Shown piece after piece: positions 4,037 through 55,244 of a stretch of DNA of 63,560 bases. Each line of letters opens with the position of its first letter. Positions within the stretch are counted from its first letter, which is position 1. The position numbers and the translations under genes were made by a program. The stretch is from the NCBI GenBank assembly GCA_024680365.1, contig JAILCN010000030.1, positions 1 through 63,560 of the forward strand, in the 5' to 3' direction. This DNA is from Solobacterium sp. (GTDB taxonomy: Bacteria > Bacillota_I > Bacilli_A > Erysipelotrichales > Erysipelotrichaceae). Under the pieces are notes generated by a model. It saw only the letters and a list, made by a program, of their open reading frames with translations. It made no database searches and was not told the origin of the DNA.

Positions 4037-5295
4037 CACTGGAAGGAATCATTACTGTCATTGTCCTGCTTGTTCTCTGTTCCGGCTTCTTCTCAGCTTC
4101 TGAGATGGCTTACAGCTCCTGCAACAGGATCCGTCTGGAGAATGCAGCTGAAGAGGGCGATGAGAAGGCAAAGAAAGCGCTGAAGATCACCGAACGCTTT
4201 GATGACGCGCTGTCTGCGATCCTGGTCGGCAACAACCTGGTCAATATTGCTTCATCCTCACTGGGCTCGATTGCCGTCATGATGACGCTGGGCGAAGACT
4301 ACGCATGGGTCTCCACACTGGTCATTACACTGGCTGTCATCGTGTTCGGCGAAACGATCCCGAAGATCACCGCGAAGAAGAATGCGACAAAGTGTGCCAT
4401 TGGTTTCTCCGGTGTGATCCGCTTCCTGATGACGGTCCTGAGACCTGTGACGTGGCTTGTTGTCACGCTGGTCGATTTCCTGACTTCAGGAATGAAGGGG
4501 GAAGAAACAGATGATGAAGAAGCGGCAGTGGAAGAGCTGCATTCCATCATCGACACAGCGGAAGATGAAAAGGTCATCGATGAAGATTCATCCGAGCTGG
4601 TCAACGCAGCGATCGACTTCGCAGATATTTCCGTATCAGAAGTCATGACCGCAAGAGTGGATATTCTTGCCATCGATATTGATGATGATCCTGAAGATAT
4701 TCTTGAGACGATCGCAGGATCCTCATTCTCCCGGATCCCGGTTTATCAGGACAGCATCGATAATATTATCGGCATCCTGTCTCTGAACCATTATCTGAAG
4801 AGTGCTGTCGATGACAGAAACGTGGAGATCAGGCCGCTGCTGATGCAGCCGTACTTCGTGTACAAGACGATGAAGCTTCCTGCTGTGCTCTCTCTGTTAA
4901 GAGATTCCCAGCAGCATCTGGCGATCGTTACAGATGAATACGGCGGAACGCTTGGCGTTGTTTCCATGGAAGACGTTCTGGAAGAACTGGTCGGCGAGAT
5001 CTGGGATGAGACAGATGTCGTGGAAGATGAGATCAAGGTGATCGAAGACGGTGTATTTGAAGTCGACGGCGATACGGTCGTTTCTGAACTGTGTTCTCTT
5101 ATGGACTGGGAGATCGATTCGTTTGATTTCGAAAGTGAAACAGTCGGCGGCTGGTGCATCGAATTCCTGGGTGAATTCCCGGATCCGGGATCTTCCTTCA
5201 CATACCGCAATGTGGAAGTGACGGTCACGGAAGCGGATGAGCGGCGTGTCAAAAAGGTTACAGTAAAAATTCTTCATGAAGAAAATGAAGAATGA
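4033..5295 (+). CDS. Second CNNM/CorC-HlyC family transmembrane protein
   Basis: Same architecture (SRIPVYQDSIDNIIGILSLNHYL; VTDEYGGTLGVVSMEDVLEELVGEIWDE); ATGA overlap with upstream gene. Confidence 0.88.
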   Translation: MTLEGIITVIVLLVLCSGFFSASEMAYSSCNRIRLENAAEEGDEKAKKALKITERFDDALSAILVGNNLVNIASSSLGSIAVMMTLGEDYAWVSTLVITLAVIVFGETIPKITAKKNATKCAIGFSGVIRFLMTVLRPVTWLVVTLVDFLTSGMKGEETDDEEAAVEELHSIIDTAEDEKVIDEDSSELVNAAIDFADISVSEVMTARVDILAIDIDDDPEDILETIAGSSFSRIPVYQDSIDNIIGILSLNHYLKSAVDDRNVEIRPLLMQPYFVYKTMKLPAVLSLLRDSQQHLAIVTDEYGGTLGVVSMEDVLEELVGEIWDETDVVEDEIKVIEDGVFEVDGDTVVSELCSLMDWEIDSFDFESETVGGWCIEFLGEFPDPGSSFTYRNVEVTVTEADERRVKKVTVKILHEENEE

Positions 5296-6251
5296 CTAGA
5301 AAGGCTGATCTGAGCATTATGACAGACAGAAAAAGAAAAAAAGTACTTCTTCTGATGAACATGGCATCCGGACAGGGAAACGGCAGGCGTGATCTGCCGT
5401 CGATCATCGAAAGACTCTCTGTATGGGGCTGTGAAGTGACGGTATATCCGATCATTCCGGAACGGGGACTGATCTCCGAACGGATCATCAGCGAACATAA
5501 AGAAGGTTTTGACGTGATCGCTGTTTACGGCGGAGACGGATCTCTGAACTATGTCGTCAACGGTCTTCTGCAGGAAAACCTTACGATTCCGATCGGTTAT
5601 ATCCCGGGCGGAAGCACGAACGATTTCGCCCGAAGCTTCGGTGACAGTATTTCCGTCTATGACTGCTGCCGGGCAATCGCGTACGGCGAGCCGTTCCAGT
5701 ATGATATCGGCGTATTTAATGACAACCGCTATTTCAACTATGTCGCGGCATTCGGCGCCTTTACCAAGACAAGCTATGAAACTCCGCAGGCAGTCAAGAA
5801 TATCTTCGGGTACGGCGCATATGCGCTCAGTGCCATCGGCTCTCTTTCGGAGAGCCTCAGCTACCGGAAGCATATGATCGTCAGACATGACGGGGAAACA
5901 CTGGAAGGCAACTTCATTTACGGCAGCATTTCCAATTCAACGTCTGTCGGCGGAATGAAGTTCGCGTTTGCCAACGATACTTCTCTGAATGACGGCGTCT
6001 TTGAAGTCATGCTGATCACCTCACCGGACAATCCGCTGGACCTTGCCAGCGTGGTTTCCAGCCTGACGACCGGCGTGATCGACCGCCGCTTTGTAAAGAT
6101 CTTCAAAACCGCGTCGATCGAGCTTGAATGCAACGAAGAGTTTGACTGGACACTGGACGGAGAAGCCGGCGGCAGATGCAAAAAAGCGAACATCAGAGTG
6201 CTTCCCAAAGCAGCGTCCATGATGGTCTTCAACGAAAGCAGCCACAACTGA
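5292..6251 (+). CDS. Diacylglycerol kinase family lipid kinase (DAGK catalytic domain)
   Basis: VYGGDGSLNYVVNGL...IGYIPGGSTNDFARSFG; ATGA overlap with upstream CDS; alternative start at MTDRKRKKVLLLMN. Confidence 0.88.
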   Translation: MTRKADLSIMTDRKRKKVLLLMNMASGQGNGRRDLPSIIERLSVWGCEVTVYPIIPERGLISERIISEHKEGFDVIAVYGGDGSLNYVVNGLLQENLTIPIGYIPGGSTNDFARSFGDSISVYDCCRAIAYGEPFQYDIGVFNDNRYFNYVAAFGAFTKTSYETPQAVKNIFGYGAYALSAIGSLSESLSYRKHMIVRHDGETLEGNFIYGSISNSTSVGGMKFAFANDTSLNDGVFEVMLITSPDNPLDLASVVSSLTTGVIDRRFVKIFKTASIELECNEEFDWTLDGEAGGRCKKANIRVLPKAASMMVFNESSHN

Positions 6252-47067: not shown

Positions 47068-47097
47068 TGGTAATATAGAATGCAGAGGAAAAACAGT

Positions 47098-48072
47098 ATG
47101 AGAGAGAAACTGAATCTGTATACCCATGACGGCATTTTTCATGCCGATGATGTATTCGCCTGCGCGATGCTGTCGCTGACGGCGGAAGAGATCAATGTCG
47201 TAAGAGGCAGCGATACAGAGATCCCGGAAGAGGGAGACTGGATCGTATTTGATATCGGCGGCGGTGAACTGGATCACCACACCCCGGAAAATAAAGAAAA
47301 CAACGGAACACATCCCGGTACAGAGATCCCTTATGCCGCCTGCGGACTTGTCTGGAAAAAATACCATGAAGAAATACTGGAAGCCATGGACTGTCCGAAA
47401 CGGTACATGGACAGCGTGTATCAGAAGCTGGAGACATCGCTGGTGCTAGGCATAGACGCGGAAGACAATGCGTTTAATCCCACGGCGAAGGCAATGGAAG
47501 CATTTGTCAATGTGTCAGATGATCTGAAGAAGAATGCTCTCAATGCATCCAGAACAAGCTTTACGGTATCCCAGGTGATCAAGGATTTCAATCCGACCTG
47601 GAATTCCGGCATCGATTCCTATGACGCGTTCATGGACGCAGTCAGTTTCGCGAAGGATATCCTGATCAACCGGATCGACAGTCTGATCTCATCGCTGGAC
47701 GGCCGTGATTACGTTCTGCGCTGCATTGACTACAGCGCTGACCACATTATGATCATGGATGAATTCGCGCCGTGGGAGGGTGTTCTGTATTCTCAGTACC
47801 GAAATCCCAAGGCGAATGATATCTGGTATGTTGTTTCACCGGCGTTAAGAGGCGGCTGGAACGTGCAGTGCGCGCTTTCCGACAGCAATGACCGGACATC
47901 CTACCGCCATCCGCTGCCTGCAGAATGGTACGGCCTGCGCTATGAAGACCTGCAGAAAGCAAGCGGAATTGCGACGGCGGTATTCTGCCATGCTTCCGGC
48001 TTTCTGGCTGGATGCGAGACGGAAAGCGACGCGATCGGGATGGCGGAGAAAGCTGCCCGCATGAAGCAGTGA
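47098..48072 (+). CDS. MYG1 family (UPF0160) protein
   Basis: THDGIFHADDVFACAMLSL...VFDIGGGELDHHTPENKENNGTHPG...AACGLVWKKY. Confidence 0.85.
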   Translation: MREKLNLYTHDGIFHADDVFACAMLSLTAEEINVVRGSDTEIPEEGDWIVFDIGGGELDHHTPENKENNGTHPGTEIPYAACGLVWKKYHEEILEAMDCPKRYMDSVYQKLETSLVLGIDAEDNAFNPTAKAMEAFVNVSDDLKKNALNASRTSFTVSQVIKDFNPTWNSGIDSYDAFMDAVSFAKDILINRIDSLISSLDGRDYVLRCIDYSADHIMIMDEFAPWEGVLYSQYRNPKANDIWYVVSPALRGGWNVQCALSDSNDRTSYRHPLPAEWYGLRYEDLQKASGIATAVFCHASGFLAGCETESDAIGMAEKAARMKQ

Positions 48073-48133: not shown

Positions 48134-49132
48134 ATGAAAGTTCTGCTGTATTTTGAAGGAGAAGATATGATTTCAAAGTCCGGGATCGGCCGGGCAATGA
48201 ATCATCAGATGCGCGCGCTGGAATCAGCCGGTGTCGAATATACAACGGATCCGTGGGACAGTGATTACGATATTCTGCATATCAACACATGGGGCGTCAA
48301 CAGCGAGGCGATCGTCCGCAACGCCCGCAGAAACAATAAGAAAGTTATCTATCATGCTCATTCGACAGAAGAAGATTTCCGCAACAGCTTTCTGTTTTCC
48401 AACGCCCTGGCACCGCTTGTCAGAAAGAGGCTGATCAGTCTCTACAGTTCCGCTGACGCGCTGATCACGCCGACGGAGTACGCAAAAGGTATTCTGGAGG
48501 GATACGGGATCCAGCTTCCGATCCATGTCGTTTCCAACGGCATCGATCTTTCCCGCTATGTCCGGGATGAAGAAAAAGTAACTGCCTACCGCAAATATTT
48601 CAGCCTGGATGAAAATGCAAAGGTCGTTCTCGGCGTAGGTCTGCTGTTCCAGCGGAAAGGTCTGCCTGATTTTGTTGAAGTTGCGTCCATGCTGCCGGAA
48701 TACCAGTTCATCTGGTTCGGCGATATTTCAAAGATGATCATTCCCCGCGAGATCTCAGAGATCGTGGAAAACCATCCGGCCAATGTTCTCTTCCCCGGCT
48801 ACGTCAAAGGACCGATCATTGAAGGAGCGTATTCTGACGCTTCCTGCTTCTTCTTTCCTTCGTATGAAGAGACGGAAGGGATCGTTGTTCTGGAAGCCCT
48901 GGCAGCCCGTCAGCACGTGGTCGTACGCGATATCGGCGTCTTCGATCCGTGGCTGAAAGACGGCGTCAGCTGCTATAAGGGACATAACAATGAAGAGTTT
49001 GCCCGGCTGATCAGAGGAACAGTGGAAGGCACGCTTCCGGATACGACGGAAGAAGGATGGAAGGTCGCGTCGAAGCGGTCGATCGAAGGCGTCGGCAGAC
49101 AGCTGCGCGCCGTGTATGAATCTGTGCTGTAA
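48134..49132 (+). CDS. Glycosyltransferase family 4, LafB/CpoA-like glycolipid synthase
   Basis: MKVLLYFEGEDMISKSGIGRAMNHQMRALESAGVEYTTD...YHAHSTEEDFRNSFLFSNALAPL...VSNGIDLSRY. Confidence 0.85.
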   Translation: MKVLLYFEGEDMISKSGIGRAMNHQMRALESAGVEYTTDPWDSDYDILHINTWGVNSEAIVRNARRNNKKVIYHAHSTEEDFRNSFLFSNALAPLVRKRLISLYSSADALITPTEYAKGILEGYGIQLPIHVVSNGIDLSRYVRDEEKVTAYRKYFSLDENAKVVLGVGLLFQRKGLPDFVEVASMLPEYQFIWFGDISKMIIPREISEIVENHPANVLFPGYVKGPIIEGAYSDASCFFFPSYEETEGIVVLEALAARQHVVVRDIGVFDPWLKDGVSCYKGHNNEEFARLIRGTVEGTLPDTTEEGWKVASKRSIEGVGRQLRAVYESVL

Positions 49133-49178: not shown

Positions 49179-50279
49179 ATGTGGAATAAGATCAAACAAC
49201 TGTTCAAAAACACACTGTTTAATATTTTCCTGATCCTTTCCCTTGCAGGTATTGTTCTGTACCTTACTCTGAAAGACGACGGGGACAGGGTTTTTGCGAT
49301 CCTCAGACATGCTTCTGTTCCCGGCATCATATTCCTGATCGTTCTGATGGTGATCGAACGGGCTATGCTGGGCTGGGGCCTGATGACGGAATGCCGGCAG
49401 TCGCATCCTCACTACACCTGGTGGCAGGGATTCGTGAATGCGTATGTTGCCGGTCTTTTCTGCAACATCACGCCCGGTGCGTCCGGCGGCCAGGTCGGAC
49501 AGGGATATATCTTCCGCAAGCAGGGAATCCCTGTTTCCCATTCGGTAGGGATCCTCTGGCTTGATTTTATTGTTTATCAGTCCGTCATGACGCTCTTTGT
49601 TCTGGCGCTGCTGATCCTGCGGTTCAATTATTACTATACGAATTATTCGCAGTTTTTCCTGATTGTCATATTCGGATTCCTGATCAGCTCCGGCATTATC
49701 TTTTTTCTGTGGCTGCTGGCTTCCTCACCGCGTTTCTACACGTGGCTGACAACGACCGGCATCAACATCGGCGCAAAGCTGCACCTGATCAGAAACAAAG
49801 AGGCTACGCTGGCAAATCTGAATCACTCGCTGCAGGCGTTCTCCAAGGAAATCGTCGTACTGAAGACGCACAGGAAAATGATCGTCTCTCTTGCGGTTGA
49901 AGATCTTCTCCGTCTGACGCTGTATTACAGCATTCCGTACTGGTGTGCCAGAGCACTGAATATTCCGGTCACGCCGGACAGAATGCTGGACATTATCGCG
50001 CTGAGCTCCTTCGTATCGATGGTCAACGCATTCCTGCCGATGCCGGGCAGCAGCGGCGGTACGGAAGCAACGTTCGTTCTGATGTTCTCAACGCTTTTTG
50101 ATAAGGTCGACGCGGCGTCGATCATGATCCTCTGGCGGTTTGTGACATTCTACCAGACACTGATCATCGGCGGCTTCATGTTCCTGTATGCAAGGACAAG
50201 AAAAGATATTCCGATCCGGGCTGAGGAGAATCTGCCCCGTACCTACGCTCCGGATGTACTGAAAGAAGGTATAAAATGA
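49179..50279 (+). CDS. Flippase-like / LPG-synthase-TM (UPF0104) integral membrane protein
   Basis: Multi-TM; FCNITPGASGGQVGQGYIFRKQG; FLPMPGSSGGTEATFVLMF. Confidence 0.88.
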   Translation: MWNKIKQLFKNTLFNIFLILSLAGIVLYLTLKDDGDRVFAILRHASVPGIIFLIVLMVIERAMLGWGLMTECRQSHPHYTWWQGFVNAYVAGLFCNITPGASGGQVGQGYIFRKQGIPVSHSVGILWLDFIVYQSVMTLFVLALLILRFNYYYTNYSQFFLIVIFGFLISSGIIFFLWLLASSPRFYTWLTTTGINIGAKLHLIRNKEATLANLNHSLQAFSKEIVVLKTHRKMIVSLAVEDLLRLTLYYSIPYWCARALNIPVTPDRMLDIIALSSFVSMVNAFLPMPGSSGGTEATFVLMFSTLFDKVDAASIMILWRFVTFYQTLIIGGFMFLYARTRKDIPIRAEENLPRTYAPDVLKEGIK

Positions 50280-52267
50280 AGATAGGATTATTCTCTGATA
50301 CATTTCCGCCTGAGATCAACGGCGTTGCGACCAGCACCCGGATCCTGCGCGATGCACTGCTGAAACACGGCCACGAAGTGTATGTGATCACGACATATAA
50401 CGGTGACGGCAGTGAAAAATGGGATGATGACGGCATGATACTTCGGCTTCCGGGGATGGAACTGAAGTTTTTATACGGTTATGTCATGACATCGCCGTTT
50501 CATGCACACGCGATCGATGAGATCCGCAAGCTTGAACTGGATCTGATCCACGTGCAGACCGAATTCGGCGTCGGCATTTTTGCGCGCCTTGTCGCGAGAC
50601 AGCTCAAGATCCCTCTTGTCAGTACCTATCACACGACATATGAAGACTATACGCATTATGTGAATTTCATTCATTCGAAGACCATCGATGCGCTTGCGAA
50701 GAAAGGTGTCGCAAAGCTTTCAAAGATGTACGGCGACAGCTCCATGCAGGTCATCGCGCCGAGTGAAAAGACAAAGAAGATGCTGGAAGGCTATCATATC
50801 CGCCGTGAGATCGACGTCATTCCGACCGGCCTTGAACTGGACCGCTTTGATCCGGAAGGATTTACAGAAGAAAACAGAAAAGAAGTGCTTTCTTCCTTTG
50901 GCATCAGCCCCGACAGCCGGGTGATCGTTTATGTCGGCCGTCTGGCGCAGGAAAAAGCGCTGGATATCGTTGTGAACGGCTTTGCGGACGCGATCCGTCA
51001 GGGTGCGGATGTGCATCTGCTGATCGTCGGCGGCGGTCCGGATGAGGAGCGTCTGAAAAAGATGACTGAGAAGATGCAGATGGCGGACAGGATCCATGTC
51101 GCAGGTCCGCGGGACGCTTCTCTGGTACCTTCGATCTACAAATCCTGCGACGCGTTTGTTTCCGCAAGTCTTTCGGAAACACAGGGCATGACCTTTATTG
51201 AAGCGCTGGCCAGCGGTCTGCCGCTGTTTGCCCGCAGAGACGACGTGCTGAACGATCTGCTGATCCCGGAGAAGACGGGATGGTTCTTTGAAGACGAGGC
51301 GGATCTTGCCGTGAAAGTAAAAGAATTCCTGGCAATCCCGAAAGAAGATGTCAAGGCGATGGTTCATGACTGCATGGAAGCAGTGAAAAAATACAGCAGC
51401 GAAACGTTCTGTGAGAGTGTTCTGAAGGTATACGACCGGGCGATCGAACAGTACCGGCATCAGTTCTCGATCACTGATGTACGGGTCAGAGACAGCGTCG
51501 TACAGGTCTATCTGATCTCCAACAAAAAAGAAGAACTGCGGCTGAAGATCTCGATGGATGACTACAGCAATTACGGACTGCGGCAGGGCGGCGTGATCAC
51601 GCAGAATTCCGTCAGGGAGCTGCAGGAAAAGGAAAAAGCTGTTTCCGCATACCAGGGCTGCATCCGCCGCATCACATACAAGGACCGCACGCGCAGGCAG
51701 ATCTATGACTGGCTGACTAAGAAGACGGAATGCAACATTGAAACGATCAACGATATCGTCAGTCAGCTGGAAGAAAAGGGATACATTGACGACAGACGGT
51801 ACTGCCGGGAAAAGATCTCATCCATGAAAGCTGCTCTCAAGGGCGGTGACAGGATCATCCGCGAGCTTGTCAGAGACGGTATTCCGATGGATCTGGCAGC
51901 TGAGATGCTCGCCGAAGAGCCGGATGATGAAAACACGGAGAACGCTGTGCGTCTGGCGGAAAAGACGATCGCCTCTCATAAGGGAATCTCTTCCCGCAAG
52001 ATGAATGCCGTGATCCGGAAAAAGCTGATCGAGAACGGATATTCATCCGAAACAGCCGATGAAGTGTTTGAACAGATCGATCTCAGTGATGTCAGGCTCA
52101 GAGAAGCTGACAGTCTGCAGAAGTGCGCGTCAAAGGCAAAGAAAAGATACGAAAGAAAGTACACAGGAACAGAGCTGCGCAATCATGTGTTCAGGTACTG
52201 CGCCGCCCAGGGCTTTGAAGTAGAGAAGATCTATGCTGTACTGGATGGAATGGAGTGGAAAGAATGA
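50276..52267 (+). CDS. Fusion protein: LafA-type glycosyltransferase (GT4) + RecX domain
   Basis: N-term MKIGLFSDTFPPEINGVATSTRILRDALLKHGHEVYVITT...GRLAQEKALD...SLSETQGMTFIEALASG; C-term GLRQGGVIT...RRQIYDWLTKKTECNIETINDIVSQLEEKGYIDDRRYCREK...KKRYERKYTGTELRNHVFRYCAAQGFEVEKIYAVL in one uninterrupted frame. Confidence 0.92.
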   Translation: MKIGLFSDTFPPEINGVATSTRILRDALLKHGHEVYVITTYNGDGSEKWDDDGMILRLPGMELKFLYGYVMTSPFHAHAIDEIRKLELDLIHVQTEFGVGIFARLVARQLKIPLVSTYHTTYEDYTHYVNFIHSKTIDALAKKGVAKLSKMYGDSSMQVIAPSEKTKKMLEGYHIRREIDVIPTGLELDRFDPEGFTEENRKEVLSSFGISPDSRVIVYVGRLAQEKALDIVVNGFADAIRQGADVHLLIVGGGPDEERLKKMTEKMQMADRIHVAGPRDASLVPSIYKSCDAFVSASLSETQGMTFIEALASGLPLFARRDDVLNDLLIPEKTGWFFEDEADLAVKVKEFLAIPKEDVKAMVHDCMEAVKKYSSETFCESVLKVYDRAIEQYRHQFSITDVRVRDSVVQVYLISNKKEELRLKISMDDYSNYGLRQGGVITQNSVRELQEKEKAVSAYQGCIRRITYKDRTRRQIYDWLTKKTECNIETINDIVSQLEEKGYIDDRRYCREKISSMKAALKGGDRIIRELVRDGIPMDLAAEMLAEEPDDENTENAVRLAEKTIASHKGISSRKMNAVIRKKLIENGYSSETADEVFEQIDLSDVRLREADSLQKCASKAKKRYERKYTGTELRNHVFRYCAAQGFEVEKIYAVLDGMEWKE

Positions 52268-53202
52268 AGAAGATCAGAGATTTTCAGGAAAAAGACAGGC
52301 TGACAATGCCGCTTCTTGTCAAAGAAGTGAAAAACGGAACGACAAATAAAGGCGCTCCGTATCTTTCCGTGATCGTTCAGGACAGCAGCGGCACGATCGA
52401 CGGCAAGTTCTGGGATGTCAAGCCGGAAGATCAGAAGACGATCAAAACCGGCAGGATCGTAACCTTCTGGTTCGATGTGCTGCTGTATAACCAGAATCTG
52501 CAGCTGCGCATTACCAGAGCGGAACCGGCTTCCCCGGCAGAAGTGAATATGGAAGACTTCGTGATCGCCAGTGAGATCAGTGAAGAAACAAGAAAAAAAG
52601 ACCTGGACGCATATGTCCAGTCGATCGGCAATGAAAAACTCAGAAAACTTGTGACAGGCATGCTGGAGAAGGCCGGCGAACGCTTCTTTACCTACCCGGC
52701 AGCTTCCCGGATCCATCACAGCTTCCTTGGCGGTCTCTCGGAGCATTCTCTTTCCATGACAGCCATGGCGGATGAGGTCTGCACGCATTATCCGCAGCTC
52801 AACCGTGATCTTCTGATCGCCGGTGCTCTTGTGCATGATGTCGGCAAGATCGAAGAGATGAGCGGTCCGGTAACAACGGAATACACACTGAAGGGAAAAC
52901 TGGAAGGGCATATTTCGATCGGCAACGGCTGGCTGAGTGAGGTCGCGGAGAAGCTTCACCTGGAAGACAGTGAAGAAGCAGTTCTTCTGCATCATATGAT
53001 CCTGAGCCACCATGGTCATCTGGAATTTGGTTCACCGGTCGTTCCGATGCTGCAGGAGGCGGAAGTACTCTGCCTCATTGACAATCTCGACGCCCGCATG
53101 AATACGCTGAAACAGGCTCTGGCTGCCGTTGAGCCGGGTGAATGGACATCCAAGCTGTTCGCACTGGAAAACAGGCAGTTCTATAAGCCGAAGGGAGAAT
53201 AA
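52264..53202 (+). CDS. yhaM: 3'-5' exoribonuclease YhaM family (OB fold + HD domain)
   Basis: MKKIRDFQEKDRLTMPLLVKEVKNGTTNKGAPYLSVIVQDSSGTIDGKFWDV...HHSFLGGLSEHSLSM...ALVHDVGKIEE. Confidence 0.92.
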   Translation: MKKIRDFQEKDRLTMPLLVKEVKNGTTNKGAPYLSVIVQDSSGTIDGKFWDVKPEDQKTIKTGRIVTFWFDVLLYNQNLQLRITRAEPASPAEVNMEDFVIASEISEETRKKDLDAYVQSIGNEKLRKLVTGMLEKAGERFFTYPAASRIHHSFLGGLSEHSLSMTAMADEVCTHYPQLNRDLLIAGALVHDVGKIEEMSGPVTTEYTLKGKLEGHISIGNGWLSEVAEKLHLEDSEEAVLLHHMILSHHGHLEFGSPVVPMLQEAEVLCLIDNLDARMNTLKQALAAVEPGEWTSKLFALENRQFYKPKGE

Positions 53203-53205
53203 GGT

Positions 53206-54516
53206 ATGGAATGGAAACTCCCGGTTGTAAAGCTGGCACATAAAACATTGCAGAGATTCGGAAGGGGAGGTTCCTTCCCCGGTGAGATCGCTTTGCGGCT
53301 CGACCCGGATTTTATTGAAAAGGTAGAGATGCCGGAAATCGTTGTGATCGTCACCGGCACAAACGGCAAGACAACGACGTCCAATCTGATCGCTGACGCG
53401 ATGCGCCAGGCAGGTCTGAAGGTCATCAACAACCGCCGCGGCGACAACCTCAATGTCGGCATCGCGACACTGCTGGCTGCGAATGTCGACAGTCATTACA
53501 GAGTTCAGGCAGACGCTGCCGTGATCGAAGTGGATGAACTGACAGTATACAGACAGTTCAAAGCCCTGAAGCCGACGCATCTTGTCGTCAACAACTTCTT
53601 CCGCGATCAGCTGGACCGGGCAGGTGAAATGGAAACGATCATCCGCAAGATCCAGGAGGTGACAGAAGATTTTGAAGGTCATATTATTCTCAACGGCGAT
53701 GATCCCAATGTTCTCAGGATCGCAGATACCGCAAAGAAAGCGAGGATCCATTATTTCTCAGTCGCTGAGACCTCTGTCTCTTCAAAGACGACCGATGAAG
53801 CGTCGGAAGGAAAATTCTGTCCCCGCTGCGGCGCACCGCTGAAATATTCATACTATCAGTACAGTCATATCGGCAGATTCTGCTGTGAGAATGACGGCTT
53901 CGGAAAGATCGATCCGTATATCCAGATCCATGACGCTGATCTGGAAAGAGGCAGATTCATGTGTGACGGAAGAGAATTCCATGCCTTTATGAACACCATT
54001 TACGGCATCTATAACTGCGGTGCCGTACTGGCTGTCATGAAGACGATGGGACTGGATCCGGAAGCAGCTGACAGGACATTCAGCACCTTTGTGCTCAATG
54101 AAGGCAGAAATGAAGTATTCAATCTTTCCAGGCCGTGTGTGATCAATCTTGTCAAGAATCCGACCGGTGCCAATGAAGTGATGAAATACATCGTCGCTCA
54201 GCCCGGCGAGAAGAATCTCTGCATCTTCCTGAATGACAACGATCAGGACGGTCATGATGTCTCGTGGATCTGGGACGCACATTTTGAACGGCTGAACGTG
54301 CCTGAGATCAGGACGATCGTCTGTTCCGGACTGCGCGCGTATGACATGGCGCTGCGTCTGAAATATGAAGGACTGGATGACCGCATCACTGTCATTGAAG
54401 ACAGTACGGAAGCTGTCAGATGGCTGGATCACGCACATAAGAACAGCTTTATTATCGCGACGTATACGGCACTCCACCCAACCCGGGCAATACTGCGGAA
54501 GGAGGCACATCAATGA
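53206..54516 (+). CDS. murT: Lipid II isoglutaminyl synthase subunit MurT
   Basis: VIVTGTNGKTTTSNLIADAMRQAGLKVINNRRGDNLNVGI; Cys4 insertion CPRCG...CC; DUF1727-like C-terminus. Confidence 0.95.
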   Translation: MEWKLPVVKLAHKTLQRFGRGGSFPGEIALRLDPDFIEKVEMPEIVVIVTGTNGKTTTSNLIADAMRQAGLKVINNRRGDNLNVGIATLLAANVDSHYRVQADAAVIEVDELTVYRQFKALKPTHLVVNNFFRDQLDRAGEMETIIRKIQEVTEDFEGHIILNGDDPNVLRIADTAKKARIHYFSVAETSVSSKTTDEASEGKFCPRCGAPLKYSYYQYSHIGRFCCENDGFGKIDPYIQIHDADLERGRFMCDGREFHAFMNTIYGIYNCGAVLAVMKTMGLDPEAADRTFSTFVLNEGRNEVFNLSRPCVINLVKNPTGANEVMKYIVAQPGEKNLCIFLNDNDQDGHDVSWIWDAHFERLNVPEIRTIVCSGLRAYDMALRLKYEGLDDRITVIEDSTEAVRWLDHAHKNSFIIATYTALHPTRAILRKEAHQ

Positions 54517-55244
54517 ATCTGAAGATACTGTGGATGTACCATGATCTGATGGATCTGTACGGAGACAAGGGAAATGCGGAAGTGCTCCGCTACCGTACGG
54601 AAAAAAGAGGCATTGAGTGCATTCTGGATACATGCACGATCGGTGAGAAGAAGGATATCGCTTCCTATGATCTGTTTTTCATGGGAGGCGGTGCGGACCG
54701 CGAGCAGAATCTGATCTACAAAGATCTTCTTTCCCGAAAAGATGCGATCAGAGACGCAATGGATCAGAAGACTGCGTTCCTGCTGATCTGCGGCGGCTAT
54801 CAGCTGTTCGGCAAATACTATAAAGACCAGGACGGCAAGGTGATCGAAGCTCTCGGCTTCTTTGACTACTATACAGAAGCCAGCGACCGTGACCACCGCT
54901 GCATCGGCAACATCGCCCTCGAAACAGAACTGGACGGAAAGAAGTTTATGGCTGTCGGGTTTGAGAATCACGGCGGTCAGACAAAAAATGTTGCCAGTCC
55001 GTTCGGCAAGGTGCTCTCCGGACACGGCAACGAATACAAGAGTCCGTATGAAGGCTTCAAGACAGATACCGTACTGGCGACGTATATGCACGGACCGCTG
55101 CTGCCGAAGAATCCGATGATCGCTGACGCCGTCATCGCCAGAGCGCTTCGCAGGCGGTACGGGGAAGTGGAGCTTGCTCCGCTGGATGATACGCTGGAGA
55201 ATAAGGCGAGAGAAGTGATGCTGAAGAGGCTTCACGTCATATGA
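54513..55244 (+). CDS. gatD: Lipid II isoglutaminyl synthase glutaminase subunit GatD
   Basis: WMYHDLMDLYGDKGNAEVLRYR...FLLICGGYQLFGKYY...YMHGPLLPKNP; ATGA overlap with murT. Confidence 0.95.
   Translation: MNLKILWMYHDLMDLYGDKGNAEVLRYRTEKRGIECILDTCTIGEKKDIASYDLFFMGGGADREQNLIYKDLLSRKDAIRDAMDQKTAFLLICGGYQLFGKYYKDQDGKVIEALGFFDYYTEASDRDHRCIGNIALETELDGKKFMAVGFENHGGQTKNVASPFGKVLSGHGNEYKSPYEGFKTDTVLATYMHGPLLPKNPMIADAVIARALRRRYGEVELAPLDDTLENKAREVMLKRLHVI

Follow-up and report, generated by a model that had tools for sequence, protein, structure and literature searches.

A glycolipid glycosyltransferase of alMGS/LafA type joined in frame to RecX across a bacterial order, probably through fusion of overlapping operon genes

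What is a RecX domain doing behind a glycolipid glycosyltransferase in a single open reading frame, and what has kept it there? The question is raised by one gene of the window, the whole 63,560-nucleotide stretch of a Solobacterium sp. contig analysed here. A sequence-only reading had described this gene as a LafA-type GT4 enzyme fused in frame to a full-length RecX with a junction near position 51,460, and the profile matches over both halves of the single ORF bear that description out. The gene and its neighbours are as follows.

47080-48072: MYG1-family (UPF0160) protein gene, between a pyruvate:ferredoxin oxidoreductase-like gene and the glycolipid operon
48134-49132, + strand: second glycolipid GT4, of the IagA/BgsA (LafB) type (491 bits, above the curated cut-off of 460)
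49179-50279, + strand: LPG_synthase_TM/YbhN-like membrane protein in a LafC-like position (E = 4.3e-33)
50276-50279, + strand: 4-nt ATGA overlap of the LPG_synthase_TM gene with the fusion gene (from gene coordinates)
50276-52267, + strand: fusion gene, GT4 (alMGS/LafA type) plus RecX; single uninterrupted ATG-TGA ORF, 663 aa, recurring across the order
50276-51460, + strand: GT4 domain, residues 1-395 (profiles, invariant residues, model, PDB fold matches)
51428-51454, + strand: VYDRAIEQY, C-terminal helix motif of the GT4 domain
51455-51463, + strand: junction, residues 394-396, predicted to lack a flexible linker and without an in-frame start codon that has a Shine-Dalgarno stretch
51464-52264, + strand: RecX domain, residues 397-663, N-terminal beta part and three-helix repeats (profiles, PDB sequence matches, model)
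52264-52267, + strand: 4-nt ATGA overlap of the fusion gene with yhaM (ATG at 52264)
52264-53202, + strand: YhaM 3'-5' exoribonuclease
53206-54516, + strand: MurT
54513-55244, + strand: GatD-like glutamine amidotransferase (GATase_3)

Pfam searches of the N-terminal half returned Glyco_transf_4 at residues 14-190 (E = 4.5e-27) and Glycos_transf_1 at residues 206-357 (E = 1.1e-28). The two Rossmann domains and the EX7E motif of the GT4 family are present. In 52 fused homologues, no variation is seen at G16, H119, R222, K227 or the EX7E pair E301/E309. PDB fold matches of this half are BshA, MshA, and PimB'. The best NCBIfam profile is that of alpha-monoglucosyldiacylglycerol synthase (alMGS, NF049988), matched at full length by residues 1-396 (E = 1e-75). 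Since its score, 255.5 bits, lies below the curated equivalog cut-off of 400, the half is called alMGS/LafA-like here and is not filed as alMGS. The assignment to this type is strengthened by the operon, which has the IagA/BgsA (LafB-type) transferase and the LPG_synthase_TM protein upstream and so contains the adjacent second GT4 and multi-TM protein of a laf-type operon. Judged from these sequence features, the N-terminal half is likely a GT4 glycolipid enzyme of the alMGS/LafA type, with predicted transfer of glucose from UDP-glucose to diacylglycerol. Enzymes of the LafA family act at the membrane, on diacylglycerol. Two near-matches to a LexA/SOS box were found in the window against 2.5 expected, neither of them near the operon.

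The C-terminal half contains the repeated three-helix domains of RecX (PF21982, PF02631, PF21981): RecX_HTH1 at residues 458-492 scored above the Pfam cut-off (E = 1.8e-07), RecX_HTH3 at 611-656 slightly below it (2.2e-05), and RecX_HTH2 at 505-545 below it (2.3e-03). The NCBIfam profile of long RecX proteins, NF010733, aligned residues 399-659 with its positions 4-263 of 267 (E = 1.3e-40). The score of this match is 139.8 bits against a cut-off of 240, and scores below this cut-off are common to every genome of the class sample among the matches listed. Sequence comparison with the PDB gave 3e3v (E = 6e-11) and 3d5l (2e-5), an AlphaFold model of the half had a pLDDT of 96, and its six best PDB fold matches were all RecX structures. 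The proposed identity of the C-terminal region as RecX is thus upheld by coverage, sequence, and fold. Long RecX proteins of Firmicutes (B. subtilis RecX/YfhG, 264 aa; L. reuteri, 3d5l; L. salivarius, 3e3v) have the same full length and fold and are likewise the sole RecX of cells with RecA, but they are free-standing, whereas here RecX follows a glycosyltransferase covalently. Because the half is fused, and not the free-standing protein of ~150-280 aa expected of RecX, we refer to it as a RecX domain in a fusion and not as a typical RecX protein.

The AlphaFold model of the whole protein (pLDDT 89, pTM 0.69) consists of two well-folded halves, whose relative orientation is only moderately confident. 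The last GT4 helix, residues 375-394, leads directly into the first RecX strand, residues 397-405; the predicted junction at ~51460 coincides with this boundary, and the direct continuity means that no flexible linker is predicted. Separate production of RecX by internal initiation was considered and rejected. In 13 of the 52 fused genes, the junction window contains a start codon with a Shine-Dalgarno-like stretch, where other windows of these genes predict 12.8. No internal start is conserved, and with a count at chance level nothing suggests that RecX is still produced on its own.

The fusion is conserved in relatives. The order consists of gut and animal-associated bacteria, Erysipelothrix and its relatives; of its 148 genomes that are at least 90% complete, 144 have RecX, and 131 of the 145 RecX matches lie in ORFs of at least 600 codons (625-794 codons). 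No second RecX was seen in the genomes of the order, and RecA is present in 43/43 good relatives. RecX was likewise found in 59 of 60 relatives belonging to both families of the order, nearly always in ORFs of ~665 codons, with the identity of the RecX half falling to ~20%. Among the matches listed for a class sample of 395 genomes, the long ORF occurs in families f1 and f2, and the other families have a free RecX of ~230-320 codons; among the matches listed for a phylum-wide sample, only members of the same class appear. The fusion is present in Lactimicrobium massiliense, Bulleidia extructa, Erysipelothrix tonsillarum, Erysipelothrix inopinata, and Amedibacillus dolichus, and also in Longicatena caecimuris, Merdibacter, Massilimicrobiota, Thomasclavelia, and Sharpea. 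The window comes from a metagenome-assembled genome (MAG) with 7.6% contamination, which could suggest an assembly or sequencing error at the junction, but the same fusion stands in isolate and closed genomes (the closed, complete chromosome of E. inopinata; B. extructa; A. dolichus). Its recurrence in dozens of independent genomes, at overall identities down to ~32%, excludes chance or assembly error, and we give such an error practically no credence. The only other RecX match in the MAG of the window, on a 3.3-kb contig (C129), is not a free recX; it is another fusion, nearest to L088/L136 in the tree, and probably belongs to a contaminating species.

How the two genes came to be joined can be read from sister families outside the order. 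There, GT4 and recX are separate and occupy the same operon slot, in the order LafC-like membrane protein - GT4 - recX - yhaM. A class-wide GT4 search showed that in families f8, f10, and f19 the recX frame opens upstream of the GT4 stop in 35/35 loci examined; in three examples read from f12, f14, and f15, no recX follows the GT4 gene. The recX gene is in the same +1 register relative to GT4 in 45 of 47 pairs, and of the 44 pairs whose recX start can be called, 35 overlap by exactly 23 nt, the start codon usually being GTG. Some genomes belong to both collections and enter these figures twice. The stretch GGAGGT-TAT-AACGTG encodes, at once, the conserved GT4 motif VYxRA, a Shine-Dalgarno-like sequence, and the recX GTG start; most fused genes keep the VYxRA motif in some form. 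Loci L141-L157 and L165-L194 retain the exact 23-nt out-of-frame overlap at the GT4/recX boundary across families.

All split sequences fall on one side of the RecX tree (SH-aLRT 95). The GT4 tree needs five changes among fused, split, and solitary states; the RecX tree needs five changes for the enzyme losses described below, two of them forced by strongly supported branches. Both trees are what a single fusion with later reversals would produce, provided that the root is on the split side, a position that no independent outgroup fixes. The fusion is best explained as a joining of overlapping cistrons that occurred once, in the ancestor of the order.

We propose, at a probability of about three in four, that the protein is bifunctional, that it arose from overlapping, co-translated genes of one operon, and that it was fixed by the architecture of that operon. 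The ancestor would have had the operon LafC-like membrane protein - GT4 (a glucosyl-diacylglycerol synthase) - recX - yhaM, and recX would have started within the final codons of GT4, in the +1 frame. A one-base deletion in the overlap, or another small indel with an equal effect on the frame, would have joined both ORFs once, in the ancestor of this Erysipelotrichales-like order, and the joined gene would then have been kept. The N-terminal half would make a membrane glycolipid, and the C-terminal half, as the only RecX of the cell, would limit RecA filaments. The fusion would hard-wire 1:1 synthesis of the two activities, and RecX would go wherever the enzyme sits, provided that the full-length protein accumulates; the halves may also be separated by proteolysis. 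Neither half would need the other in order to be selected. The suggestion that RecX had been placed under envelope-linked translation is correct in a sense, but that link predates the fusion, as the sister recX already overlaps the same glycosyltransferase gene.

RecX is the less conserved half of the protein, as it would be if it were a decayed passenger, left with no function but that of a structural tail on the enzyme. Free RecX is, however, equally or more variable: the RecX/GT4 divergence ratio is 1.87 for fused and 2.29 for split pairs, and the RecX half is therefore not decaying and evolves no faster fused than free. In close pairs, dN/dS is 0.01-0.16 for RecX and 0.05-0.11 for GT4, values that place both domains under purifying selection. 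With the RecX fold intact in the model and RecX outliving the enzyme in several lineages, the passenger reading is very improbable. The pace of evolution, which is that of free RecX, together with the retention of RecX after enzyme loss, also speaks against the earlier proposal that this RecX has taken on a different role.

The two halves have been uncoupled repeatedly in nature. In one lineage (locus L119, genome G011) the gene is cleanly re-split with an ATGA overlap. The gene is also split in G496 (locus L146), where RecX is without its N-terminal beta part; this re-split lineage (L146, positions 4487-5095, and L216) has a RecX of 203 aa that lacks the N-terminal beta part of other long RecX proteins. 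The enzyme is gone, and RecX is retained beside yhaM, in 11 sampled genomes (G502, G507, G487, G510, G503, G485, G481, G475, G094, G457, and G015), which represent about five events. The position of yhaM after recX is constant in fused, split, and enzyme-lost genomes. G457, a closed genome, and G015 have eroded, catalytically dead GT4 stubs of roughly 110 and 190 residues. The stub loci L076 (3530-4822; ~190 residues) and L206 (964-2118; ~110 residues) still join the dead GT4 domain to an intact RecX; by alignment, what remains at L076 includes the enzyme's first strand and its last helix, and L206 was judged by eye. Searches of the rest of the enzyme-lost genomes gave no good GT4 orthologue. 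The best candidate, in G502, is a 34% identical protein (L223, 780-2663, - strand, contig C14) in which a VTT/DedA-type membrane domain (PF09335, E = 6.9e-20) follows the GT4 glycosyltransferase. Since RecX survives loss of the enzyme, it has a selected role of its own, and of the two halves it is the enzyme that can be dispensed with.

These reversals bear on the idea of a functional tether, in which the fusion persists because RecX is thereby held at the inner membrane and limits RecA filaments nearby, or because the lipid/UDP-glucose state steers RecX. In its favor, LafA works at the membrane on diacylglycerol (PMC2764115), as enzymes of its type do, and the fusion is retained in 131/145 matches. 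Genes for subunits of a complex are overrepresented among short gene overlaps (PMC10666635), so the ancestral GT4-recX overlap might reflect an interaction between the two proteins. In B. subtilis, dispersed RecX-YFP gathers into nucleoid foci after damage and into polar or nucleoid foci during competence (PMC3527212); a membrane-held RecX would be a real difference from this pattern. Against tethering stand the loss of the GT4 half with retention of RecX in about five events, the clean re-split, the only moderately confident orientation of the domains (pTM 0.69), and the GT4 half itself, which has a negative net charge and in which no basic amphipathic helix stood out as a membrane anchor. 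The observations do not support membrane tethering of RecX as the reason for the fusion, and we consider tethering unlikely. It is similarly improbable that RecA control in the order is physically coupled to the glycolipid enzyme, with RecX working from the membrane or the lipid/UDP-sugar state of the enzyme gating access to RecA filaments, and with the 23-nt sister overlap marking an older GT4-RecX complex.

Fixation by operon architecture, the reading we prefer, includes as a sub-case a neutral accident without benefit, which has not been undone because a new start and a new stop would be needed. The ready-made overlap in the ancestor and the tolerance of reversals are consistent with such an accident, but most lineages keep the fusion even where the RecX half is at 20-30% identity, and re-splitting through an ATGA overlap, as at L119, looks mutationally easy. 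Easy re-splitting combined with wide retention makes some advantage of 1:1 synthesis plausible, and we give the purely neutral variant somewhat less than an even chance. Retention in most of the order could reflect positive selection for physical coupling rather than inertia.

The comparison with known systems separates what is shared from what is particular to the locus. With alMGS/LafA/BgsB enzymes, the GT4 half shares the best profile over the whole domain, the catalytic residues, and the glycolipid operon partners; unlike them, the fusion scores below the equivalog cut-off and carries a RecX tail, and its activity is a prediction. The Listeria laf operon (LafA-LafB-LafC; PMC2764115) likewise combines two GT4 enzymes with a multi-TM membrane protein, but the gene order differs, and recX and yhaM belong to the operon here. 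The ancestral GT4-recX genes resemble overlapping, translationally coupled pairs (PMC10666635), and the flanking junctions are ATGA overlaps, though 23 nt is longer than the common overlaps of 4 or 1 nt, and the pair later became a fusion. In the mycobacterial recA-recX pair (PMC3062782), recX also overlaps its upstream neighbor, which is recA there and a glycolipid enzyme here. Both domains are well known, and the GT4-RecX fusion was not found described in the open-access literature: articles linking RecX to glycosyltransferases, glycolipids, YhaM, or domain fusions describe neither the fusion nor the overlapping pair, and no RecX fusion is mentioned in a comparative survey (PMC1193525) of recombination genes.

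The locus presents a clade-defining fusion that joins a regulator of DNA repair to a lipid enzyme, and whose unfused ancestral arrangement, joining site, one re-split, and several reversals by enzyme loss are all visible in living genomes. It is well suited as a natural test of whether function or operon inertia preserves fusions. Where annotation follows the first domain, the order's only RecX stays hidden, and deletion of the "glycosyltransferase" in fused bacteria would also remove RecX.

Several individual cases were set aside or noted separately. Two members of the family of the window, G286 and G394 (98-99% complete), gave zero GT4 or RecX candidates in the class-wide and order-wide searches, unlike other members, and are possibly misplaced, masked, or differently coded. 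The frame break inside GT4 at a T-run in G444, a closed genome, was judged a likely sequencing error; the short frames in G020 and G057 result from contigs that end there, and the GT4-only copies at G486 and L138, with different neighbors, were judged to be paralogues. The otherwise normal fusion at L096, present in a single MAG (RUG12927), has an in-frame TAA inside the RecX half (5339-5341), which may be an error, a pseudogene mutation, or a real truncation.
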